From a virus, in IMG/VR virus record IMGVR_UViG_3300032086_001593, positions 1-33,492 of that record: 33,492 nt of DNA. One strand, given 5' to 3'. The position numbers and the translations under genes are program-made. A model generated the notes under the pieces. That model saw only the letters and a program-made list of their open reading frames with translations. It was not told where the DNA came from and searched no databases. Every line of letters begins with the position of its first letter. The stretch's first letter is position 1. Below, piece by piece: positions 7,800 to 31,637 of this stretch.

Positions 7800-7948
7800 A
7801 AGCAACTAAAAAAGAGATCAACATGCCAGTTGACAAAGAATTTCAAAAAGCAATTAAAAAGAATTGGTGGTTATATTTTCCATTTACATTTTGGCTGATC
7901 ATGTTTACCAATTTTATATTTTTCATTTTAACAGGTAGTGTTGGCTAA
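7796..7948 (+). CDS. 50-aa single-span membrane protein
   Basis: The gene starts on the stop of the exonuclease (ATGA). The product is basic at the N-terminus (KATKKEINMPVDKEFQKAI) and then has an aromatic-rich hydrophobic span at about residues 24-46 (WWLYFPFTFWLIMFTNFIFF). The positive head suggests that the N-terminus stays in the cytoplasm. It sits between nuclease and methyltransferase genes and may be an early host takeover factor or a superinfection-exclusion protein. No family was recognised. Confidence 0.5.
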   Translation: MKATKKEINMPVDKEFQKAIKKNWWLYFPFTFWLIMFTNFIFFILTGSVG

Positions 7949-8621
7949 TATAAATCTACATAATAAAGATTGCCTTGTAGCTATGAAAGCTATGAAGGAT
8001 AAAGAATTTGATTTAGCTATTTGTGATCCACCCTATGGAATACAAGCAGACAAGAAACAAAATGATGCAGCCCTAAGAAGATTAAAAGCAAAGGGTAAAA
8101 GTAAAGCTGGTAGGGGTTATAAATTATATAAAGACACTGACTGGGATCAAGAGGCCCCAACTCAAGAATATTTTGATGAACTATTTAGGGTTAGTAGAAA
8201 ACAAATAATTTGGGGTGGAAATTATTTTCCATACTTATGGGGATATAGCAATAGTTTTATAGTTTGGAATAAGCAACAAAGAGAGTTTAGTTTGGCTGAT
8301 GGAGAATTAGCATGGTATAGTAAAACAAATAAAGCAATGAGAATATTTGATATGTCAAGAGGTGCTGCTTTGTCTGATGGTCAAAACAATGGGGGGAGAT
8401 TCCATCCAACCCAAAAGCCAGTAAAACTTTATAGATGGTTATTAAAAAGATATGCTAAAGAAGGTTATAGAATACTAGATACACATTTAGGATCTGGAAC
8501 TATTGCAATTGCCTGTCATATTGAAGGATATGATCTAGAAGGTTTTGAAATAGATAAAGATTATTTTGATGGTGCCTTAAAAAGATATAACTTGTTAAAA
8601 AATCAATTAACCCTTTTATGA
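7938..8621 (+). CDS. DNA adenine N6 (or cytosine N4) methyltransferase
   Basis: The 227-aa protein has the catalytic DPPYGI at residues 30-35, the family segment FHPTQKPV and a later SAM-binding DTHLGSGT loop, so the order is catalytic motif first, then SAM site (beta class). DPPY is typical of adenine-N6 or cytosine-N4 methylation. There is no target-recognition tail and no partner endonuclease, so it is a solitary phage enzyme, probably protecting its DNA from restriction. The start appears to be GTG (7938) or TTG (7941), inside the end of the previous gene. The target is unknown. Confidence 0.88.
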   Translation: MLANINLHNKDCLVAMKAMKDKEFDLAICDPPYGIQADKKQNDAALRRLKAKGKSKAGRGYKLYKDTDWDQEAPTQEYFDELFRVSRKQIIWGGNYFPYLWGYSNSFIVWNKQQREFSLADGELAWYSKTNKAMRIFDMSRGAALSDGQNNGGRFHPTQKPVKLYRWLLKRYAKEGYRILDTHLGSGTIAIACHIEGYDLEGFEIDKDYFDGALKRYNLLKNQLTLL

Positions 8622-8902
8622 GTAGAAAAGATTATCCAGTATGGACAGGTGTATTAGATTATTTCCCAGATGCTTTAATGGAAGTATCTAAAATAAGTAG
8701 GATAGGAAATGAACAACACCATAAAAATAAACCTTTACATTGGGATAAAACAAAAAGTACTGATCACTTAGATGCTTTGACAAGACACTTACTTAAAGCT
8801 AAGGAGATTGATGAAGATGGATGTTTGCATTTAGCTAAAGTAGCTTGGAGGGGATTAGCAGCCTTACAGGACTATTTAGATAAACAAAATGCCAAAGATT
8901 AA
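8618..8902 (+). CDS. dATP/dGTP diphosphohydrolase-like domain protein
   Basis: The 94-aa protein resembles the N-terminal dATP/dGTP diphosphohydrolase domain (DUF5664 group). Visible are VWTGVLDYFPDALMEVSKIS, the conserved KPLHWDKTKSTDHLDALTRH segment with His and Asp residues, and HLAKVAWRGLAALQDYL. Related MazG-like proteins trim purine dNTPs, in some phages as part of making base-modified DNA. The four-base ATGA overlap with the methyltransferase and the adjacency to a Mom-like gene suggest a shared job in nucleotide supply or DNA modification. The substrate is not known. Confidence 0.65.
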   Translation: MSRKDYPVWTGVLDYFPDALMEVSKISRIGNEQHHKNKPLHWDKTKSTDHLDALTRHLLKAKEIDEDGCLHLAKVAWRGLAALQDYLDKQNAKD

Positions 8903-9596
8903 AAAAAGCTATATATATTCAATACAAGATTCCTTATTTGGCCATAGGGACATAATAGGTTTTGGTACAGATGACTTTAATATAAAAGTTATAGATAGAA
9001 ACCTAGCTAATGATATAATTAAAAAGAATCATTATAGTAAGAAGTTTTATAATGCTACTTACATACATTTAGGGGTATATGAAAAAGATAATATGGTAGG
9101 GGTATTGCAATATGGATATGCTATGAATCCAGCTAGTTGTTCTAGTGTTGTTGAAGGAACTGAAATGGATCAATACTTAGAATTGAACAGGATGTGGTTA
9201 AGTGATGAAATAGAAACAAAATACCCAGAAAGTAGGGCAATAAGCTATTCAATAAAATATATAAGAAGACAATATCCAAAAGTTAAATGGATACAATCTT
9301 TTGCAGATGAGAGATGTGGTGGATTTGGTATAGTATATCAAGCTTGTACCTTTTCATATTATGGAGAACATAAAAGTGACTTTTGGGAATTAGAAGGTCA
9401 AGTATATCATAATATTCAAATGACTGTTTCAAAGGATTCAAAAAGATATGCAGGTGAAGCAAAGTACTTGCAGGAAAATAAAGATAGGGCCAAAAGGTTA
9501 AACCTAAGACAATTTAGGTATATTAAATTCTTGGACCAAAGGGAAAAGAAGAAGTGCCTTTTAAAAGAACAACCCTATCCTAAACATTATAACTAA
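8889..9596 (+). CDS. Mom-like DNA adenine modification protein
   Basis: The 235-aa product follows the Mom family pattern: NHYSKKFYNATYIHLGVYEK (residues 47-66), GVLQYGYAMNP (71-81), LELNRMWLSDE (97-107), then SFADERCGGFGIVYQACTF (137-155) and YYG. In phage Mu, Mom converts adenine to N6-carbamoylmethyladenine and blocks many restriction enzymes; the fold is a GNAT acyltransferase with bound metal. A similar role here is an inference. The gene overlaps the diphosphohydrolase by 14 bases, placing three DNA-modification genes in a row. The C-terminal tail is basic. Confidence 0.7.
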   Translation: MPKIKKSYIYSIQDSLFGHRDIIGFGTDDFNIKVIDRNLANDIIKKNHYSKKFYNATYIHLGVYEKDNMVGVLQYGYAMNPASCSSVVEGTEMDQYLELNRMWLSDEIETKYPESRAISYSIKYIRRQYPKVKWIQSFADERCGGFGIVYQACTFSYYGEHKSDFWELEGQVYHNIQMTVSKDSKRYAGEAKYLQENKDRAKRLNLRQFRYIKFLDQREKKKCLLKEQPYPKHYN

Positions 9597-9607
9597 AATA
9601 AACTATT

Positions 9608-10060
9608 ATGAGAACAAAAAGTAGGATTAGAAACCTAATAAATGAAATAGAATCCCTATCAGACCTAGAAGTATTTAGACCAACTAGAGAAAGGGGAATA
9701 GTAGAAGTAAGATCATTGCTTTTCACTGTATTAAAAAAGTATTATAGATTTACACTAAGGGAGATGATAGAGCTTTGTGCTGAAAATCATTTCTTTATAA
9801 CACATGCTAGTATTATACATAGTTTAAAATCTTTTGATATATATGCAAAATATAATACTAACTTATTACAATGGCTTCATGTATTAGCTTTAGATTTAGA
9901 AGAAGATGCAGCCCAAGAGAGAATAGATTTTATTAAACCTAAATTGAAGTATTTATCAGAAGATAATCTATTTAAGTTATCAACAATTGTTAAAGAAATG
10001 TATGAAGAAGATATTATACTTTTAGCAGAAAAAGAGAAAGAAGAAACTTTACAAACTTGA
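9608..10060 (+). CDS. DnaA domain IV-like DNA-binding protein
   Basis: The 150-aa protein contains RERGIVEVRSLLFTVLKK, then FTLREMIELCAENHFFI and THASIIHSLKSFD (about residues 27-77), which match the helix-turn-helix and signature (DHSTVxHAxxK) of the DnaA C-terminal domain. DnaA domain IV binds 9-base DnaA boxes at origins. There is no AAA+ domain, so this is a stand-alone DNA-binding domain that may mark an origin or repress or compete with host DnaA. The C-terminal third is acidic coil. It precedes the terminase genes, the last early gene. Confidence 0.6.
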   Translation: MRTKSRIRNLINEIESLSDLEVFRPTRERGIVEVRSLLFTVLKKYYRFTLREMIELCAENHFFITHASIIHSLKSFDIYAKYNTNLLQWLHVLALDLEEDAAQERIDFIKPKLKYLSEDNLFKLSTIVKEMYEEDIILLAEKEKEETLQT

Positions 10061-10082
10061 CAAAAAATAACAAAAAGGAAAA

Positions 10083-13750: not shown

Positions 13751-14742
13751 TGGCAACTTATTTAGCAAGATTAAGATCACCTTTTTTTATAGATCATACA
13801 ACTAGTGTAACATCAGGATCAGCTGATTTAACAATTACTATTAATTCAGTAGATCAATATGTAATATCAAAAGACACTATAAGCAATAGAGCAACATTTG
13901 AAGTATCAGAATTAATAAGGGACTTCTTAAAACCTACATGGGATGGTGTATTTCCTTATTCAACAGCAACAACAAATAGTTTAGTTGTAACTGCATCTAT
14001 ACAAGTAGAATTCTACACAAACAATAAAAAGACAAGAGCAGCTAATACAGCAGCAGGTACACCTGACACACCAATAGGGGCTGAAACACAAAATCATACT
14101 TTATATGGTTTTGATGCATATAGTGAATTTAAAGAAGGGGCAAACAAACAATTAGTATCAGGTCAAATGCTACAAAGTGCAACTACTATGTATTTACCAG
14201 AAACAGGTGATGCATATATTCCAATTGAATCATCTAATGCAGTTTCTTATTTTACAGTTGCAGATACTGTAGCTGATGGTACTATTGTAAATCCAGTTGC
14301 AGGAATAGATGTTACAATTAGAAGAATATGTGAACCAGTTTTTAATATTATTAAAGTAATATTCATAAATAAATTTGGTGCATTACAAGAATTTCATTTT
14401 AATAAAAAGAATACAATAAGCTTTAATTCTACTCAACAAAATTATGAATCAATGCTTATTCAAGCTAATACCTATTCTGTAAACAAACATCAAAAGTATG
14501 TTTATAATAAACAAGGATCAGAATCAATACAATTAAATACAGGTTATATAGATCAAGCCCAATATGAAACAATTAAACAATTAATGTTATCAGAACAAGT
14601 ATGGGCCATAGTAGATTCAACAATATACCCTGTTAATATTAATACAAATTCCCTTACTAAAAAAACAAAAATAAATGACAAACTTGTAAACTATACATTA
14701 GAAATGGAGTTTGCATTTGATGTGATTAATAGTGTTAGATAA
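13750..14742 (+). CDS. Tail structural protein, possible distal tail
   Basis: The 330-aa protein is beta-rich with few charged runs, typical of a structural subunit. It starts ATYLARLRSPFFIDHTT and has SVDQYVISKDTISNRATFEV early, FNIIKVIFINKFGALQEFHF in the middle and NYTLEMEFAFDVINSVR at the end. It lies between connector-type genes and the giant tail protein, sharing ATAATG and ATGA-like overlaps. It may form the distal tail ring. No named family was recognised. Confidence 0.55.
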   Translation: MATYLARLRSPFFIDHTTSVTSGSADLTITINSVDQYVISKDTISNRATFEVSELIRDFLKPTWDGVFPYSTATTNSLVVTASIQVEFYTNNKKTRAANTAAGTPDTPIGAETQNHTLYGFDAYSEFKEGANKQLVSGQMLQSATTMYLPETGDAYIPIESSNAVSYFTVADTVADGTIVNPVAGIDVTIRRICEPVFNIIKVIFINKFGALQEFHFNKKNTISFNSTQQNYESMLIQANTYSVNKHQKYVYNKQGSESIQLNTGYIDQAQYETIKQLMLSEQVWAIVDSTIYPVNINTNSLTKKTKINDKLVNYTLEMEFAFDVINSVR

Positions 14743-17700
14743 TGAGTAAATTTCAACTTTATATAGATAACCAAAAAGTAGATCAATTTCAAGATGAATC
14801 AGTTAGTTTAACTGAAACAATACAAGATATAAGGGATATATCAAAAGTGTTCACTGACTTTACTAAATCCTTTAACTTACCTGCAAGTGATGTTAATAAT
14901 AAAATATTCAAACATTATTATAGATTCAACTTAGGACATGGTTATGCTTTTGATGCAAGAAAAAAGGTAAGTGCTAAAATAGAATTAAATACAATACCAT
15001 ATAGGGATGGAAAAATAAGATTAGAAGGTGTTGATTTAGAAAATGGTAAACCAAAATCATATAGGGTTACTTTTTTTGGAAACACAGTTAATCTAAAAGA
15101 TGTTTTAGGAGATGATGAAATAAACTCCCTAACATGGCTATCTAACTTTAATACAATATATAGTGAAGCAAAAATTAAAGACATTTTAACTAGGTCTGAA
15201 GGTTTACAAGTAACAGTAGGAAGTGATACCTATGATGCAGCTTTAATAGTTCCTTTAATATCTAATACAGTTAGATTGTTTTATGATTCAACTATTGAGG
15301 TTCCTTATGAAAATGCTGATGGATCTGTTAACACAGAACTTGGGGGTAATCTATATCCTACTAATAAAAATTCAGAAACAACTAATGATGTTCATGGTGT
15401 TTACTTTGAAGATTTAACTTATGCTATCAAGCTTCATTTAATAGTTGAAGCAATACAGCAACAATATGAACAAATTGTATTTAGTGATGACTTCTTAGAC
15501 CTAACCAATGGTCCAGATGCTTATAAAAACCTTTATATGCTATGTCAAAGAAAAGAAGGAAGACCTTTTGAAGATATGGGGGTAGGAGAAAAACTAATAA
15601 CAGGATTTCCTACAACTGTAAACAATTATATAGCAGTAAACAATGAAGCAGTAAGAATATACAATCTAAACCCTAATCAACTTGTTACAGGTGCTTGGAC
15701 TATAAATACTCAACAACCTTATCCAACTTTCACAGCAGTATTAAAGGAAGGAAGTGAAGAAATATTTAGAAAAGAATTTGCAGCAGGATCAAATACAACT
15801 GCAACTATAAATCAAATATTAACTAATTCATCAGAAGGTTATACCTTAACAATAGAAACACAAACTTCTTTTACAATAGCTAGTTTATCATTTGAAGGTG
15901 TAACACCTACTGGTAATCAACTAACATCACAAATTAATTCACAAATAGATATAACCAATGAAAAAGAATTTGTAGTACAAAATCATTTACCTAATTTAAA
16001 AATTATAGATTTTCTTACAGGTTTATTTAAGATGTTTAATTTAACTGCCTATGAACAAGATGGCATTATTCATGTTAAAACTTTAGAAAGCTTTTATTCT
16101 GCTGGATCAGTTAGGGATATTACAGAATTTGTTGATCCACAGACAATGCAAATAGATAAGGCTTTACCTTATGAAGAAATAGAGTTTAAATATAAAGATA
16201 CTGAAGCAAAAATAGCAAAACAACATGAACAACTAAGTAGTAATACATGGGGTGCTATTAAGTATCAAGAAACAGGGGGACTTAACAGTAATGAAACTAA
16301 ATTTGAAGTAATTGCACCTTTTGCACATTTAAAATATGAAAGATTCCCAAATACAGATATACAATGGGGCTGGATGGCTAATGAAAATGGTGAACCTTAT
16401 TTTAAAGATGCAGTTGTATTTTTAAGTGAATATGTAACCCTTCCAAGTACTGATTACCTAAGATTCTTAGAGGGAACTTCAGGGGTAACAAGTATTTCAG
16501 ATATTCAAGCTTATTGGATGCCTTCTAATACAGTAGAAAGAGATCCAACTGTAAGTAAAGAAAGTATCCATTTTAATTTAGAATTAAGTGAATGGACAAA
16601 TAGTTCTGCTTTTACTGAAACCCTATTTGAACAATATTATAGGTTTTATATAGCTGGTATATTTAACAGTGCAAAAAGATTAACTAAAATAAAGGCTAGA
16701 TTACCTAAGAAGTTTGTTATCAATTACACATTAGCAGACACACTTGTTATAAATGGGGATAAATATAAAATTAATAGTATAACTACAAATCTTCTAACAG
16801 GAGATAGTCAATTAGAATTACTAAATGACACAGTTGTTGATACAGGGGTAACACAAACTGACACAGGGGGTGGTGGTCAACCATCAAATAATCCTCAAAC
16901 TAATGTTTTGACACTATATCAATGTGATTCACCAAATGCAACTTATGAATCAACACAAACATTAGCTACTTTAAATTTAGCTAACAATACAAGGGTACAA
17001 GATAGTTCTGGTAACACTTATAGGGTAACAGGTAATGCAGCACCTAATCAATATACTGCTATATCTGTAACTTCAACAGGATTAACTGGATGTCCATCTA
17101 CTCCAACAACACCAACAACTTATTACTATGGGTTAACAAGATGTAGTGATAATGCAACTAACTTTAGAACATCAACAGATGTAGGTAATCCAACTTATGC
17201 AATTACTCAACAAGTATTTGATGGAAGTGTAAAATATATTATTAGAAATTCAAACACTGTTTCTACAGTTCCAAGTGTAACAATAACATCTACACCTAGT
17301 CCTGTTCAGTTAACTTGTGCTGGTAATACAACAACTAATTACTATCAATTAAATCCATGTTGTAGTGGTACCACACTTTATGGTTTTAGTGCTAGTAATT
17401 CTTTAAGTGGAACAGTAGTTTATCAAGGTCAATCTTATGTAATATCCCCCACTTCTACAAGTGGAACTATTGATATTGACTCTCTAAGTGCAGGATCATG
17501 TCAAACATATTATTATACACTTAATGATTGTTCAAACACTTCAACTATTGTGCATTATGCAAATAGTAACTGTTCAAATTTAGCTGGATCAGAATTAGAG
17601 TATAGTGGAACTTGTTATTATGTAGCAACAACTACAAATACATCTGGAACTATTGACTTAGATAATTTATCTAGTTGTTCATGTGGAGGAGGACCAGTAA

Positions 17701-19115
17701 CACCTCCTGCAACAGAATATTATGTTTTAAGAGATTGTGATACAGCTACTTTAGTTGTAACAACTACAACTACTAATGATTTAACACTAACCACTAGTTC
17801 CACACCTTCTAATGCATCAAGGGTTCAAGATTCAAGTACAAGCAAATGTTATACTGCTAATGGTTTAACAACTGATCCAAGTCAATATACAACACAAATA
17901 GGTCAAGTAAGTGATTTAAATATTTTAGGCTGTCCTTCAACACCTTGTACCACAGTGCTTTATTATCATTTACAACAATGTGCAACAGGAAATACAGGTT
18001 ATATAAGTGGTCAAACAACAAATCAAATAACATTAAACACCAATGATATGGTAGCTTCTGGATCAACAAGTGGTCCAAGGTATAAAGTTATAGGTACTAC
18101 AAGTTCTGGAAGTTCAGTAGGAACTGTTTATTCAGTATCTGATACAGATTGTCCTACATATTATGAACTACAACAATGTTACACTTTACAAGGAAATTAT
18201 AGAACAGATCAAAACATAAATGAAATTACTTTAAATGTAGGTGATAGGGTAGCTGATTCTTGTGGTCAACCTTATACTGTAGTAACAGTAGGTGTTCAAG
18301 GTGGAACTTATGCTAATGTAGGAACTGTTACAGATTTAGGTGCTAGTGGATGTCCAAGTTTAACAGGACCAGTTTATTCATTACAAAGATGTTCTGATAG
18401 TACTACAGGATACACATCATTACAACAAGCATCAGATGTAACAATAGCATTAAATGATACAGTAACAATTAGTGGTGGAGATAGGTATCAAGTAGTAGGT
18501 ACTACAAGTAGTATTGTTAATCAAATAGGTGTTGTATGTCCTGATGGAGGTAATAACTGTATTACACCTGTAATTCCACCCCCACCACCACCTGCAACAA
18601 TAAATTATGCTAGATTTATATCTTGTGATGATCCATTAGGAGCTGTTATTGCAGTTTACAGTTACTCACAAATAAGTACATGGTGGGTTATTAGTGAAGT
18701 AGGTCAATATGAATGTTATAGGTGGTTAGATACTAATCAAGGACTTAATCCTGTAGAGTTAAATAGTAGTAACTTTAATTTCTTTACAGAAGAATCAACA
18801 GCAGGTGGAAACTGTTTAGATTGTCAAGCACAGTCACCACCACCTCCTCCTCCACCCCCTCCTCCTGCACAAACTTGTTTTACTTTAACATTGTATAGAG
18901 CAACAAGTGCAATAGGATTATGTAGTGCAACACAAAGAACTGTTTATACAAATGGTGCATCTTTAGGGGCTTCAAGTGCAATATACTCAACAAGTGATTG
19001 TTCTGCTTATTTAACAAATGATCAATACTATTCTGATGATGGAGGGGTAACTTATTACTTTTGGGATTATAGTGCTTTAACCTTATCAGGTCCATTTACA
19101 AATAATTGTCCATAA
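14742..19115 (+). CDS. 1457-aa tail tip protein with Cys-rich repeats and polyproline
   Basis: The longest gene. The first half (about residues 1-720) resembles tail proteins of Bacteroidetes phages (FQLYIDNQKVDQFQDESVSL, RYRVTFFGN-like strand, GLFKMFNLTAYEQDGIIHVK), likely a baseplate or tail-tip domain. From residue 724 there are about nine modules of roughly 70 residues, each opening with an aromatic-x-Leu-x-x-Cys motif (YYGLTRC, YYTLNDC, YYHLQQC, YYELQQC) and rich in Thr/Ser/Gly and Cys. Two polyproline runs, Pro6 at 1279-1284 and Pro10 at 1366-1375, act as hinges. The modules look like disulfide-linked adhesion domains. The next gene is a prolyl-hydroxylase-like enzyme that starts on this stop. 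Confidence 0.75.
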   Translation: MSKFQLYIDNQKVDQFQDESVSLTETIQDIRDISKVFTDFTKSFNLPASDVNNKIFKHYYRFNLGHGYAFDARKKVSAKIELNTIPYRDGKIRLEGVDLENGKPKSYRVTFFGNTVNLKDVLGDDEINSLTWLSNFNTIYSEAKIKDILTRSEGLQVTVGSDTYDAALIVPLISNTVRLFYDSTIEVPYENADGSVNTELGGNLYPTNKNSETTNDVHGVYFEDLTYAIKLHLIVEAIQQQYEQIVFSDDFLDLTNGPDAYKNLYMLCQRKEGRPFEDMGVGEKLITGFPTTVNNYIAVNNEAVRIYNLNPNQLVTGAWTINTQQPYPTFTAVLKEGSEEIFRKEFAAGSNTTATINQILTNSSEGYTLTIETQTSFTIASLSFEGVTPTGNQLTSQINSQIDITNEKEFVVQNHLPNLKIIDFLTGLFKMFNLTAYEQDGIIHVKTLESFYSAGSVRDITEFVDPQTMQIDKALPYEEIEFKYKDTEAKIAKQHEQLSSNTWGAIKYQETGGLNSNETKFEVIAPFAHLKYERFPNTDIQWGWMANENGEPYFKDAVVFLSEYVTLPSTDYLRFLEGTSGVTSISDIQAYWMPSNTVERDPTVSKESIHFNLELSEWTNSSAFTETLFEQYYRFYIAGIFNSAKRLTKIKARLPKKFVINYTLADTLVINGDKYKINSITTNLLTGDSQLELLNDTVVDTGVTQTDTGGGGQPSNNPQTNVLTLYQCDSPNATYESTQTLATLNLANNTRVQDSSGNTYRVTGNAAPNQYTAISVTSTGLTGCPSTPTTPTTYYYGLTRCSDNATNFRTSTDVGNPTYAITQQVFDGSVKYIIRNSNTVSTVPSVTITSTPSPVQLTCAGNTTTNYYQLNPCCSGTTLYGFSASNSLSGTVVYQGQSYVISPTSTSGTIDIDSLSAGSCQTYYYTLNDCSNTSTIVHYANSNCSNLAGSELEYSGTCYYVATTTNTSGTIDLDNLSSCSCGGGPVTPPATEYYVLRDCDTATLVVTTTTTNDLTLTTSSTPSNASRVQDSSTSKCYTANGLTTDPSQYTTQIGQVSDLNILGCPSTPCTTVLYYHLQQCATGNTGYISGQTTNQITLNTNDMVASGSTSGPRYKVIGTTSSGSSVGTVYSVSDTDCPTYYELQQCYTLQGNYRTDQNINEITLNVGDRVADSCGQPYTVVTVGVQGGTYANVGTVTDLGASGCPSLTGPVYSLQRCSDSTTGYTSLQQASDVTIALNDTVTISGGDRYQVVGTTSSIVNQIGVVCPDGGNNCITPVIPPPPPPATINYARFISCDDPLGAVIAVYSYSQISTWWVISEVGQYECYRWLDTNQGLNPVELNSSNFNFFTEESTAGGNCLDCQAQSPPPPPPPPPPAQTCFTLTLYRATSAIGLCSATQRTVYTNGASLGASSAIYSTSDCSAYLTNDQYYSDDGGVTYYFWDYSALTLSGPFTNNCP
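16911..18560 (+). repeat. Cys-rich protein repeats, about 70 aa each
   Basis: At protein level the repeats share an opening YY-x-L-x-x-C, a central (G/N)D/TRV-x-D-S-x-G-x-x-Y-x-V and a closing GCPS. The modules start near 16911, 17119, 17338, 17507, 17717, 17959, 18157 and 18372. They are diverged and show no obvious DNA identity. Confidence 0.65.
18576..18866 (+). other. Two polyproline runs (Pro6 and Pro10)
   Basis: Six Pro codons at 18576-18593 and ten at 18837-18866, all CCA, CCT or CCC and never CCG. They flank a Cys-poor beta module. Runs of this length would stall ribosomes without EF-P and can form rigid polyproline-II rods. Confidence 0.85.
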
Positions 19116-19729
19116 TGAAAGAAATAGAAAACTTTATAACATATCAAGAAGCTGATTACCTAATTAAAATGATAGATCAATATGCATCTAAGTCAATGGT
19201 TGTAGGATCAGGCAAAGATATGAATCAATATAGCCCATCTAGAACATCTTATACTTCTAATTTAATACATAATGATCCAACTGTTAAATCATTACATGAA
19301 AGAATAGCTAAATATCTAGGACAACCTATACAAAAGGGGGAATCATTACAAGGACAAAGATATGAAGTAGGGCAATACTTTAGATCACACACTGATTACT
19401 TTACTAAAGATAGTTATGAAAAGAATTGTTTATCAAGTGGGAATAGAACTTTTACTTTTATGTTATATCTAAATGACAATTTTGAAGGTGGTACTACTAA
19501 ATTTCCAAATTTAAATAAAGAATTTCAACCAAAAGCTTGTAAAGCAGTTGTATGGAATAATTTACAACATGGATTGCCAAATGAATATATGCAACATAGT
19601 GGTGAACCTGTAACAAAAGGGACTAAATATATAATTACTTCATGGTGGAGGGAAAATATATGGAATGGTGGGGCTGATCAAAAGGAATATCAAGAAAAAT
19701 TAAAAAGTAATCAATTAAGTATTATATAA
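19115..19729 (+). CDS. 2-oxoglutarate/Fe(II) oxygenase, prolyl 4-hydroxylase-like
   Basis: Start at the TAATG (19115); an earlier TTG at 19106 is less likely. The 204-aa enzyme has the metal ligands His92 and Asp94 (YFRSHTDYF) and distal His161 (QHSGEPVTKG), with Lys171 ten residues on to bind 2-oxoglutarate, plus RTFTFMLYLNDNFEGGTTKF. That is the double-stranded beta-helix of prolyl 4-hydroxylases. Such enzymes hydroxylate proline or other residues using O2, iron and 2-oxoglutarate. It begins on the stop of a gene with Pro6 and Pro10 runs, so that tail protein is the obvious candidate substrate; this link is inference. All catalytic residues are present. Confidence 0.85.
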   Translation: MKEIENFITYQEADYLIKMIDQYASKSMVVGSGKDMNQYSPSRTSYTSNLIHNDPTVKSLHERIAKYLGQPIQKGESLQGQRYEVGQYFRSHTDYFTKDSYEKNCLSSGNRTFTFMLYLNDNFEGGTTKFPNLNKEFQPKACKAVVWNNLQHGLPNEYMQHSGEPVTKGTKYIITSWWRENIWNGGADQKEYQEKLKSNQLSII

Positions 19730-19733
19730 ATAT

Positions 19734-19886
19734 ATGCTAAAGAATATTATTGAATTATTACAAGTAGTAAATGGGGAAACTGAAAGAATAAAGTTTGCTC
19801 AAGGATCACACTTTCTACCATCTAATTGGAAGAATGGCTTTAAACTAGCAAAAAGAATAGCAGATTGGCAAAAAGATAACAAATGA
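19734..19886 (+). CDS. 50-aa protein, unknown
   Basis: A small ORF between the oxygenase and the tape measure, with ATG at 19734 and an ATGA overlap into the next start. The product (MLKNIIELLQVVNGETERIK, HFLPSNWKNGFKLAKRIADW) is probably two helices with a Trp-rich end. A copy of the AAGTATTATATAA motif precedes it but is partly explained by the end of the oxygenase. No function was recognised. Confidence 0.55.
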   Translation: MLKNIIELLQVVNGETERIKFAQGSHFLPSNWKNGFKLAKRIADWQKDNK

Positions 19887-21532
19887 AATCAACAAAATAT
19901 ACAATTGACATTGAGGTAAATAATAAAGAAGCTGATTTAGCCATACAAGGTACTGCAAAAGAAGTTAAAGAGTTAGATCAAGCCAATACAGATGCCTTAG
20001 ATAATATAGATAATCTATCTGGTGGATTAATATCTAATTTCCAAAATGTTACAAAAGTAATTACAGGTTCAATAAAAGCTTTAAAAACTTTAAGAGGTGT
20101 CTTAATAGCAACAGGTATAGCTGGATTTGCTTTAGCAGTTGCTTCTGTATCTAAAGCTTTCACTAATTCAGAAGAAGGACAAAATAGATTTGCAAAACTT
20201 ATGGGCCAGATTGCAGTTGTAACTGGTAATGTTTTTGATATATTAGAAAATCTAGGTAAGTCAATTCTAAATTTAGGCCAATCATTAAAGTTTTTAGTAA
20301 AGGGTGACCTTGGAAATGCAGCCTTAGCTTTTAAAGAAGTAAGAAATAATATTAGTGATGCAACTGATCAAGTAAAAAACTTTGGTGAAGAGACAAGAAA
20401 AGAGATTGCAATAGCAGGGGAACTTGCAGATCAAAGGGCAAAGGCAGATAAGATTGAAAGGCAGTTATTAGTTGATAGGGCAAAAGCTGATAGAGATAGG
20501 GCTGATTTATTAGAGAAAGCAGTTGATTTAGAAAACTATACAGTTCAAGAGAGGATTGGGTTCTTACAAGAAGCTAGTGCTTTAGAAGAAGAAATAACAA
20601 ACAAAGAAATAAGGTTAGCTGAAATAAGATTAAATGCTAAAATAGAAGAAAATAAATTAAGTGGCTCAACAAAAGAAGATTTACAAGAAGAAGCAGAATT
20701 AAGAGCTCAACTTATAACATTAGAAACAACAAGGTTATCTAAACAAAAGGAAGTAACATCACAAATTATTACTTTAAAGAATGAAGAAAAAGCTGCTAAT
20801 GAAGCTGCAAGTAAAGCAGCTCAAGATGAAATAGATAAACAAGAAGAGGCTTTAAGATCATTTGAAGAACAAGAATTAGAAGCCCTAGCAATTACAGAAG
20901 AATTAAAAACAGAATTAGCAGTTAAAAAGAGCAATGAAAGATATGATAAGTTAATTAAGTTAGCTAAAGAATTTGGTAAAGATACTTATGAACTTGAAAC
21001 AGCTAGGATTATTGCAGAACAAGATATTAGAATAGGTGCTAGTGAAGATGAAGTAGATTTAGTAGAAGGAACAGAAAAAGCAAAGCATGATGTCCTTTTA
21101 AAATTTACTGCAATAGGTTTAGCATTAGCAACAGAAGGATCAAATGCAGGTAAAGCACTAGCAATAGCAAATGCCTTAATATCTACTTATGCAGGTGCTG
21201 CTCAAGTATTAGATGATAAAACCTTACCACTTATTGCAAAGATAGCAGGGGTTGCAACAGTCTTAACAACAGGTTTCACACAAATTAGGGCTATACAACA
21301 AACACAAATACCAGTGCTAAGTGTTGGTGGTGTAACAGGGGGAGCTGGATCAGCACCTGCCCCTCAAATACAACCTCCTTCTTTCAATGTAGTTGGTGCT
21401 AGTCCAATTAATCAATTAACAGAAGCAATAGCTGGTCAAACCAATCAACCAATTAGAGCTTATGTTGTTTCAAATGATGTAACAACCCAACAAAGTGTAG
21501 ATAGGAATATAGTACAAACTGCTGGAATATAA
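19883..21532 (+). CDS. Tail tape measure protein
   Basis: The 549-aa protein has a coiled-coil N-terminus, hydrophobic segments (GVLIATGIAGFALAVASVSK, about residues 72-91; AVVTGNVFDILENL), long charged helices in the middle (EEALRSFEEQELEALAITEE) and a C-terminal GKALAIANALISTYAGAAQV segment, the usual end of tape measures in this group, then a Pro-rich tail. It sets tail length. At roughly 1.5 angstroms per residue it predicts a tail of about 80 nm, consistent with a siphovirus, though the estimate is rough. Confidence 0.78.
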   Translation: MKSTKYTIDIEVNNKEADLAIQGTAKEVKELDQANTDALDNIDNLSGGLISNFQNVTKVITGSIKALKTLRGVLIATGIAGFALAVASVSKAFTNSEEGQNRFAKLMGQIAVVTGNVFDILENLGKSILNLGQSLKFLVKGDLGNAALAFKEVRNNISDATDQVKNFGEETRKEIAIAGELADQRAKADKIERQLLVDRAKADRDRADLLEKAVDLENYTVQERIGFLQEASALEEEITNKEIRLAEIRLNAKIEENKLSGSTKEDLQEEAELRAQLITLETTRLSKQKEVTSQIITLKNEEKAANEAASKAAQDEIDKQEEALRSFEEQELEALAITEELKTELAVKKSNERYDKLIKLAKEFGKDTYELETARIIAEQDIRIGASEDEVDLVEGTEKAKHDVLLKFTAIGLALATEGSNAGKALAIANALISTYAGAAQVLDDKTLPLIAKIAGVATVLTTGFTQIRAIQQTQIPVLSVGGVTGGAGSAPAPQIQPPSFNVVGASPINQLTEAIAGQTNQPIRAYVVSNDVTTQQSVDRNIVQTAGI

Positions 21533-28768: not shown

Positions 28769-28858
28769 ATGAAAATATATAAACCTAAGCAAAAAAATAT
28801 TATAAAGTTAATGACATATATAAATAATAAATTAAAATTAAATAAAGATGGCAAGTAG
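28769..28858 (+). CDS. 29-aa basic micro-ORF
   Basis: A small ORF (MKIYKPKQKNIIKLMTYIN, ending KLNKDGK) in the 89-base gap before the fibre gene, overlapping its start by 11 bases. It has ten Lys. It may be a coupling leader or simply open A-rich sequence. Low support. Confidence 0.25.
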   Translation: MKIYKPKQKNIIKLMTYINNKLKLNKDGK

Positions 28859-31637
28859 TTTAACAGGTATTAGTATAGCATCAAGTTATGACTCTTTACT
28901 TAAAGTAGGGGACAATGATGGATTATCAAATACACTACAAGTTATTTCAGATGGTCTAGGAACAGAAACAGGTATTTCTTTAAACAATCAAGGAGATCTA
29001 ACTGCAACTGGGACCATAACTGCTAATTCAGTTGTTGCTGATTTAACTGGTAATATTACAGGTAATTCAACTGTTTCTGGTACTTTAACTTTTGGTTCAG
29101 GGTTGAGTGATGGTACTATAACAATTACAGATATAAAAGATGAAGACAATATGGCTTCAGATAGTGCAACTGCACTAGCAACCCAACAAAGTATAAAAGC
29201 TTATGTTGATGCTCAAGTAACAGCAAGTGATTTAGATTTTCAAGGAGATAGTGGGGGTCAACAAAGTATTGATTTAGATTCAGAAGTATTATCTATTGTA
29301 GGTACAACAAATGAAATATCAACTAATTCAACAGGTAATTCTTTAACCATAGGATTAGCAGCTAATATATCAGGATTAACTTCTGTTGCAGCTACTTCTT
29401 TTGTTGGTGCATTAACAGGGAATTCTTCAACAACTACTGCCTTACAAACTGCAAGAAATATTGCAGGTGTGTCATTTGATGGGACAGGAGATATAACCCT
29501 AACAACAGACAATATTACTGAGGGGTCAAATCTTTATTATACTTCTGCAAGATTTGATTCAGCTTTATCAGCTAAATCTACAACTGACTTATCTGAGGGG
29601 ACCAACCTTTATTATACTGACTCAAGGGCAGATGCAAGGGTTAATTTACAAACAGGTGGTAATTTAGATTTATCTAGTAAAACAACAAGTGATTTAGCAG
29701 AAGGGACAAATAAATATTATACAGAAGAAAGAGTAGATGATAGGGTGGCTAGTTTATTAGTAGCTTCAACAGGTATCTCAAGCAGCTATGATGATGTAGC
29801 AAATACCTTAACCCTAACAAACACTGCACCAGATCAAACTGTTGCTTTGTCTGCTGGAACAGGAATTAGTACTTCAGGAACTTATCCTAACTTTACAATT
29901 ACTAATTCATCACCAGATCAGACTGTTTCTATAACTGCCTCAAATGGATTAACTGATGGAGGTACTTATCCAAGCTTAACAATAGCAGGTGATGATGCAA
30001 CTAATTCAACTAAGGGTGTTGCTAGTTTTTCTTCTGATCATTTCACTGTAACAAGTGGTGCAGTTAGTTTAGGAGTTGATACAATTGATAACACCTTAAT
30101 AGATTTTGGAACAGGTGCAGGTCAAGTAAACACTGATAATATACCAGAAGGGAGTACAAATTTATTCTTTACTCAAGAGAGAAGTGATGATGCAGTAAAT
30201 AATTTATTAGTTGGGGGAAGTGGAATAGGATTATCATATGATGACATAAACAATACCCTAACTATTGCAAATACACAAAGTGGTATAGGCTTAGGAGATT
30301 TTTCAGCTTCTACATCTGGAATTGGTAGTTTAGCTTATAACAATGTAACAGGGGTATTTACTTACACTGGTCCTAGCAAATCAGAAATAGATGCTTTAGG
30401 AATTGCAGCTTCAACAGCTGATACTTTAGCAACTGCAAGAACTATAAATGGAACTAGCTTTGATGGATCAGCAAACATAAGTTTTGATACTGATTCAGTT
30501 TCAGAAGGAGCAGCAAATTTATACTATACTGATGCAAGGGTACAAGCAATAAGCATTAATAATGTAGTTGAGGATACAACACCACAGTTAGGTGGTAATC
30601 TTGATGGACAAACTTATGATATTGATACAACAGGTAAGATTTACTATTCAAATGTATTTTCTTTAGTTGGTGATCTTCCAAGTGCTTCTACATATCATGG
30701 AATGTTTGCTCATGTACATGCTACTGGAAAAGGGTATTTTGCACATGCAGGTAACTGGATAACTTTACTAGATGAAACTAGTAGCACTACTGATAATTTA
30801 ACAGAAGGCTCAACTAATTTATATTATACTTCTACAAGGGCAAACACTGACTTTGATACTAGATTAGCAACTAAGTCAACTACTGATCTTGCTGAGGGGA
30901 CCAACTTGTATTATACAGATAGCAGATGGGATACAAGGTTAAGTGCAAAAACAACAGATGATCTAACAGAGGGTGTAACAAACTTGTATAACCAAACCCA
31001 CACAGGTGATGTGACTGGATCAACAGCCTTAACCATTGCAGCAGATTCTGTAACTTATGATAAGATGCAAGACCTTGTAACTGCTAATAGAGTATTAGGT
31101 GGAACTGCAGCAGGAACTATTGCAGAAGTACAAGTAGCAACTGATATGATTGCAGATGATGCAGTAACAGCAGCTAAAATAGATAGTGATTTAAGGGCAG
31201 TTCAATATATAGGTTTAGATTCTACAGATTATCTAGAATTTACTGACAACACTCAAGTTGATCTTTATATAAATGGTTCTAATGAGTTTAGATTTGAATC
31301 AGATGGGGACTTTCATGCAAATGGAGATGTAGTTGCTTATTCAACAACAGTAGCATCAGATGAAAGATTAAAAGAAAATGTTAAAGTAATTGATAATGCT
31401 TTAGATAAAATTGACCAGTTAAGGGGTGTAACTTTTGATTGGATTGATAGAGGAGATAAAAGATCAGGTGGTGTTATAGCACAAGAGCTTGAAAAAGTAA
31501 TGCCTGAGCTTGTAAAAGAGGTTGAGAACCTTAAAACACAAGATAGTTTTAAAGCAGTTGATTATAATGGTATAATTGGATTGTTAATTGAAGCTGTAAA
31601 AGAGTTAAAAGATAATTGTAATTGTTTAAATAAATAA
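28848..31637 (+). CDS. Tail fibre with S74 autocleaving chaperone
   Basis: The 929-aa fibre has an N-terminal stalk, then repeats of EG-T/S-NLYYT-x-x-R (eight or so, for example TEGSNLYYTSARFDS, LSEGTNLYYTDSRAD, LAEGTNLYYTDSRWD) alternating with Thr/Ser-rich spacers, typical of trimeric fibre shafts. The C-terminus is a peptidase S74 intramolecular chaperone: SDERLKENVKVIDNALDKI starts at Ser837 and continues to GGVIAQELEKVMPELVKEV. It folds the trimer and cuts itself off before Ser837 using a Ser-Lys pair. The fibre probably recognises the host surface. It ends five bases before the next gene. Confidence 0.85.
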   Translation: MASSLTGISIASSYDSLLKVGDNDGLSNTLQVISDGLGTETGISLNNQGDLTATGTITANSVVADLTGNITGNSTVSGTLTFGSGLSDGTITITDIKDEDNMASDSATALATQQSIKAYVDAQVTASDLDFQGDSGGQQSIDLDSEVLSIVGTTNEISTNSTGNSLTIGLAANISGLTSVAATSFVGALTGNSSTTTALQTARNIAGVSFDGTGDITLTTDNITEGSNLYYTSARFDSALSAKSTTDLSEGTNLYYTDSRADARVNLQTGGNLDLSSKTTSDLAEGTNKYYTEERVDDRVASLLVASTGISSSYDDVANTLTLTNTAPDQTVALSAGTGISTSGTYPNFTITNSSPDQTVSITASNGLTDGGTYPSLTIAGDDATNSTKGVASFSSDHFTVTSGAVSLGVDTIDNTLIDFGTGAGQVNTDNIPEGSTNLFFTQERSDDAVNNLLVGGSGIGLSYDDINNTLTIANTQSGIGLGDFSASTSGIGSLAYNNVTGVFTYTGPSKSEIDALGIAASTADTLATARTINGTSFDGSANISFDTDSVSEGAANLYYTDARVQAISINNVVEDTTPQLGGNLDGQTYDIDTTGKIYYSNVFSLVGDLPSASTYHGMFAHVHATGKGYFAHAGNWITLLDETSSTTDNLTEGSTNLYYTSTRANTDFDTRLATKSTTDLAEGTNLYYTDSRWDTRLSAKTTDDLTEGVTNLYNQTHTGDVTGSTALTIAADSVTYDKMQDLVTANRVLGGTAAGTIAEVQVATDMIADDAVTAAKIDSDLRAVQYIGLDSTDYLEFTDNTQVDLYINGSNEFRFESDGDFHANGDVVAYSTTVASDERLKENVKVIDNALDKIDQLRGVTFDWIDRGDKRSGGVIAQELEKVMPELVKEVENLKTQDSFKAVDYNGIIGLLIEAVKELKDNCNCLNK

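Follow-up and report, generated by a model that had tools for sequence, protein, structure and literature searches.

A predicted prolyl 4-hydroxylase gene overlaps the gene of a probable phage tail protein with proline-rich linkers

Prolyl 4-hydroxylases (P4Hs) have been described in several systems that are close to the locus studied here. As Eriksson 1999 is cited in PMC9301287 and PMC7019647, the chlorovirus PBCV-1 encodes a P4H that is active on Pro-containing peptides (structure 5c5t); hydroxyproline was sought in PBCV-1 virions and not detected, despite the active enzyme (PMC7019647). In plants, the Hyp-O-arabinosylation of extensins is achieved by a P4H together with HPAT of CAZy family GT95 (PMC8012813), and in protists Skp1 is modified by the cytoplasmic P4H PhyA, after which the hydroxyproline is glycosylated (PMC7864055, PMC11570480). 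In Baltic Sea viral data, P4H is among the commonest 'auxiliary metabolic genes', and its use has been called cryptic (PMC9301287). We have found no direct report of hydroxyproline or prolyl hydroxylation of bacteriophage tails or virions in the open-licence literature.

We have analysed a stretch of 33,492 nucleotides of viral DNA (the window hereafter), in which a P4H-like gene follows the gene of a probable tail protein. The features concerned are as follows.

14742 to 19115, plus strand: probable tail protein of 1457 aa, with an N-terminal core of ~700 aa and a C-terminal extension
18576 to 18593, plus strand: P6 linker, residues 1279–1284 of the 1457-aa protein
18837 to 18866, plus strand: P10 linker, residues 1366–1375 of the same protein, ~98 aa before its C-terminus
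19115 to 19729, plus strand: prolyl 4-hydroxylase-like 2OG-Fe(II) oxygenase of 204 aa, with the motif HxD...H...K
19883 to 21532, plus strand: coiled-coil, tape-measure-like gene of 549 aa, which bounds the enzyme slot on its far side

The stop codon TAA of the 1457-aa ORF lies at 19113–19115 and the ATG of the oxygenase begins at 19115, that is, the two genes share one nucleotide (TAATG). The original prediction had placed the oxygenase start on the tail stop codon, had noted the runs of six and ten prolines in the tail gene, and had listed His92, Asp94, His161 and Lys171 in the enzyme; all of this agrees with the sequence.

The N-terminal core of the 1457-aa protein matches phrog_38559 (1.8e-73), a PHROG whose function is unannotated, and a PDB search with this core has returned no matching chain. 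The C-terminal extension of 757 residues is built of Cys-containing repeats with Pro-rich linkers between them, and residues 701–1457 hold 32 Cys versus a single one in residues 1–700. Shuffling the C-terminal part's own residues in 20,000 trials has produced P10 in none and P6 in one, and no other ORF of the window is Pro-rich. As the surrounding genes look neck/tail-like and the 549-aa coiled-coil gene comes next, the position of the gene makes its product a probable tail protein, with a probable location in the virion. Since its homologues occur in the Nonlabens phages P12024L/S (29% identity) and in contigs of Flavobacteriaceae and Psychroflexus MAGs, the host of the window phage is probably a marine flavobacterium.

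Several other genes of the window can be named. A Mom-family protein (8889–9596, PF25680, 1e-67) and an N6/N4 DNA methylase (7938–8621, 7e-17) suggest that the phage probably modifies its own DNA. A 929-aa protein with a C-terminal Peptidase_S74 intramolecular chaperone (28848–31637) is likely a second tail fibre or spike, and a Peptidase M15 gene (1683–2237, 2e-14) encodes a probable endolysin. Rfam and tRNA scans of the window have found nothing.

By sequence, the 204-aa oxygenase is a prolyl 4-hydroxylase, and this activity is predicted for it. The ligand set H-x-D...H...K is present in order (His92, Asp94, His161, Lys171) and is invariant in 13 aligned relatives, and the family also conserves Arg111 and Trp177 (alignment A1). 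The protein matches PF13640 at 3.3e-15 (57.3 bits against the curated cutoff of 27) and phrog_61 at 5.9e-29. The closest PDB structures found by phmmer are those of the Bacillus P4H (5iax, 3itq and 5hv0, about 1e-24), followed by human P4HA2 (7zsc, 4e-17) and an algal P4H (2jig, 7e-12). A search of bacterial and archaeal genomes with the window P4H has found no relative, and NCBIfam names none of the enzymes.

A scan of IMG/VR with the oxygenase has yielded 35 relatives at 52–87% identity and 8 distant ones. The 28 closest (69–87% identity) overlap the tail ORF in the same TAATG without exception (28/28), and each of their tails has a Pro-rich linker ~98 residues from the C-terminus; in more distant relatives, the enzyme starts within about 2–40 nt of the tail stop. 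We have called a segment Pro-rich at a density of 5 Pro in 12 residues, as a run criterion (at least 4 consecutive Pro) misses the Pro-rich linkers in loci L022, L027 and L028. For enzymes with at least 50% identity, the adjoining gene is Pro-rich in essentially every judgeable case. Overall, 40 of the 45 loci that have the P4H alone and an upstream ORF place the enzyme directly behind a Pro-rich gene, compared with 22 Pro-rich ORFs among 807 in control loci that lack the enzyme. Four of the five exceptions (L036, L037, L039, L040) belong to a group of 25–32% identity. The fifth, L246 (59%), was the only outlier at or above 50% identity when we looked for relatives with the enzyme and without a Pro-rich structural protein, as the original prediction had proposed; the ORF two positions upstream encodes a protein with about twenty (GLQPSGG)-type repeats, which contain Pro below the density cutoff.

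Since these loci were gathered by similarity, the counts overstate their independence, and fairer measures are the unrelated N-terminal cores and two large lineages without shared neighbours. Owing to the shared Cys repeats, single-linkage clustering of the Pro-rich proteins did not serve for counting independent families, and N-terminal and lineage clustering was used instead. Cys-rich adhesin-like repeats are indeed common to structural proteins with unrelated N-terminal cores (L032, L035, L124-type loci and the window C-terminus).

On the other hand, enzymes at 25–40% identity, from Erwinia, Salmonella, Microcystis and Prochlorococcus/Synechococcus phages, are not beside Pro-rich genes and are located among replication or metabolic genes. 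The pairing rule is therefore limited to this enzyme subfamily and does not extend to all phage 2OG oxygenases; the expectation that homologues occur only beside polyproline fibres holds within the subfamily and fails outside it. The distant enzymes also speak for another explanation, in which the oxygenase is an auxiliary gene for a host protein (e.g. EF-Tu) or for 2-oxoglutarate or oxygen responses, with an incidental Pro-rich neighbour. DNA-repair or 2OG roles have been proposed for the cyanophage enzymes (PMC2984593, PMC3037559), and the PHD of Pseudomonas putida acts on EF-Tu (PMC7864055). However, across unrelated lineages the subfamily lies next to Pro-rich structural genes almost without exception, the presence of the enzyme tracks linker composition, and a role on EF-Tu would not predict any pairing with Pro-rich genes. 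We thus regard a host-directed role as unlikely.

Across relatives, the linkers conserve their richness in Pro but no fixed run length. The linker equivalent to P10 is Pro-rich in all 38 P4H-bearing tail relatives with variable sequence, including P10, P11, PVPPPPPSPP, PAPPPTPPPT, PVQPPVRPP and PTPPTPPPTPPPTP. Almost every complete close relative has a Pro-rich linker at the position homologous to P6; in L023 this linker reads TPVTPPVVP, under the density cutoff. Both P6 and P10 contain no Gly and thus differ from collagen-type Gly-X-Y or PPG substrates. The proposed action of the enzyme on the proline runs of the adjoining tail fits the Pro-rich or Pro-repeat neighbours found at 50% identity or more and the absence of the enzyme where such linkers are lacking, though uninterrupted P6 or P10 runs are not needed. 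The variants also bear on the idea that polyproline serves as an unmodified rigid spacer, or as a ribosome-pausing signal that times the next gene, the hydroxylase being unrelated. A P10 run should slow the ribosome, and this one is located 82 codons upstream of the overlapping start, but relatives with the same TAATG overlap carry PVQPPVRPP or PAPPPVRPP, which should stall far less, and pausing leaves the co-occurrence of the hydroxylase unexplained; we find this idea hardly credible.

We have further gathered tail-core homologues without regard to the enzyme, obtaining 107 non-redundant loci, of which 96 were suitable for a tree. The slot, by which we mean the interval from the tail gene to the tape-measure-like gene, measures about 128 nt when empty and about 770 nt with a P4H. 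In the tree set, all 34 loci with a hydroxylase in the slot (31 P4H, 3 c11, a second domain described below) have a Pro-rich extension, and all 57 loci with an empty slot have none; that is, no hydroxylase occurs without Pro-rich linkers among the 96 tail-family loci. The remaining 5 slots hold a phrog_4417 gene, with a marginal Pro segment in 2 of the 5 tails. Actually, the enzyme changes only three times on the tree, with the linkers changing along in all three (sign test p 0.25), so the within-family test is by itself too weak for significance, and the strength of the association comes from unrelated lineages. The phrog_4417-type genes that occupy the P4H slot are the following.

L110, 7147 to 8028
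L144, 10084 to 11013
L152, 8061 to 8942
L153, 11985 to 12866
L162, 5977 to 6858

The slot content also helps to locate the probable target within the tail protein. Nearly all enzyme-linked tails have Cys-rich repeats, which even proteins with unrelated N-terminal cores share, and the enzyme might thus act within these repeats instead of the proline linkers. All five tails with a phrog_4417 slot have Cys-rich extensions, and four of them (L110, L152, L153, L162) have 30–36 Cys in repeats detectably similar to those of the window, with Thr-run linkers and no hydroxylase. Thr/Ser runs of at least 8 occur in the linkers of 5/5 tails with the phrog_4417 gene, versus 2/38 of those with P4H and 0/59 of those whose slot is empty. 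The occurrence of the hydroxylase therefore goes with the proline linkers and not with the Cys repeats, and the enzyme class in turn tracks the linker sequence (PP versus PT/PV), which makes Cys repeats a very improbable target. The long tails of L087, L135, L139 and L140 have nearly Cys-free extensions, no Pro-rich linker and an empty slot; the single P5 of L140 falls outside the counted extension. The phrog_4417-type protein has a DxD-like motif by eye and no Pfam match, and it may be a transferase that glycosylates Thr.

Further lineages have been found with profiles of the P4H family (A1) and of another domain, c11 (A2), and unrelated phage lineages show the same pairing of hydroxylase and Pro-rich genes. 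The c11 domain, of 190 aa and without a Pfam family, is fused to the P4H in many loci; examples of the domain are as follows.

L085, 10996 to 11574: c11 domain
L124, 6423 to 7001: c11 domain, fused copy

Among the fused P4H+c11 genes with an upstream ORF, a Pro-rich protein is directly upstream in 46 of 48 and among six neighbours in 48 of 48. The fibres paired with them carry (PT/PV/PPT)n repeats, and the PP fraction of the linkers is 0.54 for P4H alone versus 0.06 for P4H+c11, the latter being mostly PT, PV and PS. The AlphaFold2 model of c11 has a pLDDT of 94.8, and its top Foldseek matches are prolyl hydroxylases of Pseudomonas, human (PHD2) and Dictyostelium (E 1e-7). In VIA-align, c11 reaches Z 13–16 to P4Hs and also to the BesD/HalB lysine halogenases, which have the same fold, and H109, D111 and H172 are invariant in 43 rows. 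The model thus assigns c11, with high confidence, to the 2OG-oxygenase fold (DSBH, H-x-D...H), though hhalign of the P4H and c11 profiles gives no significant match despite the common fold class. The best PHROG of c11 is phrog_2954, whose label 'ferrochelatase' looks wrong for this domain.

Directly downstream of the c11-bearing gene, 50 of 58 loci have a gene from one or the other of two glycosyltransferase clusters. The first cluster matches PF23452 (HPAT, hydroxyproline O-arabinosyltransferase) in 14 of 25 members, at best with 1.1e-7. When members were checked singly, L124 (25.2 bits) and L125 (24.8 bits) exceeded the curated cutoff of 23.9 and the others fell below; an HPAT-like model from 7 sequences has a pLDDT of 55 and only weak GT-A-type matches. 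The second cluster is mixed (n = 38), with Gly_transf_sug in 20, O-FucT in 9 and PF11397 (GT60-type) in 8, up to 3e-35. PF11397 is the family of the Dictyostelium Skp1 hydroxyproline GlcNAc-transferase Gnt1. Because a glycosyltransferase lies downstream of the second oxygenase, hydroxyproline in the c11-type relatives is probably a site of sugar attachment. The window is of the P4H-alone kind; such loci have no HPAT-like gene nearby, and in the window, whose sequence may not be a complete genome, we have found no glycosyltransferase. The suggestion that hydroxyproline could be a glycosylation site thus gains from the relatives and finds no such gene in the window itself. In L033, a radical-SAM-like gene (9170–10075, CxxxCxxC by eye) lies between the hydroxylase fusion and a GT60-like transferase, and it possibly serves a further modification of the fibre.

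Based on the above analyses, we infer that the gene very probably encodes a prolyl 4-hydroxylase whose substrate is the product of the preceding tail gene, modified at its Pro-rich linkers. The tail protein and the hydroxylase would be made from the same message, presumably coupled via the overlapping start and possibly in stoichiometric amounts, as the original prediction suggests. Using Fe(II), O2 and 2-oxoglutarate, the hydroxylase would modify, before or during assembly, exposed prolines in the linkers that join the Cys-repeat domains of the C-terminal part (P6, P10 and the like). Hydroxyproline would then stabilise extended polyproline-II linkers, by which the presumed receptor-binding repeats are held away from the tail. 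In relatives with (PT/PV/PPT)n repeats, where the second 2OG oxygenase is usually joined to the hydroxylase or stands in its place, the glycosyltransferase would then add a sugar.

The extension, the linker and the modifying enzyme are distributed as if they move together as a module. We consider it rather likely that marine phages carry plug-in cassettes behind the tail-fibre gene, matched to the chemistry of the linker: a hydroxylase for polyproline, hydroxylases with a hydroxyproline glycosyltransferase for (PT/PV/PPT)n, and a putative transferase for Thr runs. If so, phage adhesins would have an extensin- or mucin-like decoration, and phage virions would contain hydroxyproline. Judging by its genomes, the subfamily has a single probable substrate, the Pro-rich tail protein of the phage itself, and its modification would bring hydroxyproline, in relatives probably with a linked sugar, into the particles. 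Such genes would then shift from modifiers of host metabolism to enzymes of virion maturation, and they would offer compact combinations of P4H and glycosyltransferase acting on simple Pro repeats.

Compared with the known systems, the cyanophage members of phrog_61, which is common in such phages, are 24–33% identical to the window enzyme, and those inspected are located elsewhere, e.g. beside uvsX. With the P4Hs of Bacillus (3itq, 5hv0, 5iax), algae (2jig, 3gze) and animals (P4HA, 7zsc), the homology is nearly full length, and HxD...H...K, Arg111 and Trp177 are common; the window enzyme differs in being phage-encoded, in overlapping a structural gene, in having none of the extra domains of animal P4HA, and in having Phe89 where the Bacillus P4H has Tyr next to the HxD motif. 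The likeness to Skp1 modification is that a PF11397 enzyme (E 3e-35) accompanies the hydroxylases in some relatives, though the phage substrate would be tail fibres and the window has no PF11397-type gene. Extensin modification is resembled by the Pro-rich structural protein with an adjacent P4H, in the window and in nearly all judgeable close relatives, and by the HPAT-family neighbour in L119/L124-type relatives; it differs in that the phage genes form a cassette, that the HPAT match of the relatives is remote (best about 1e-7), and that the window lacks a glycosyltransferase. Overall, this would be known chemistry in a new variant, and it assigns a role that can be tested to a marine viral gene that is abundant but whose function has been cryptic. 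The P4H is virus-encoded here as in PBCV-1, but PBCV-1 infects eukaryotic algae, whereas the phage gene overlaps the gene of its presumed substrate and tracks it in evolution.
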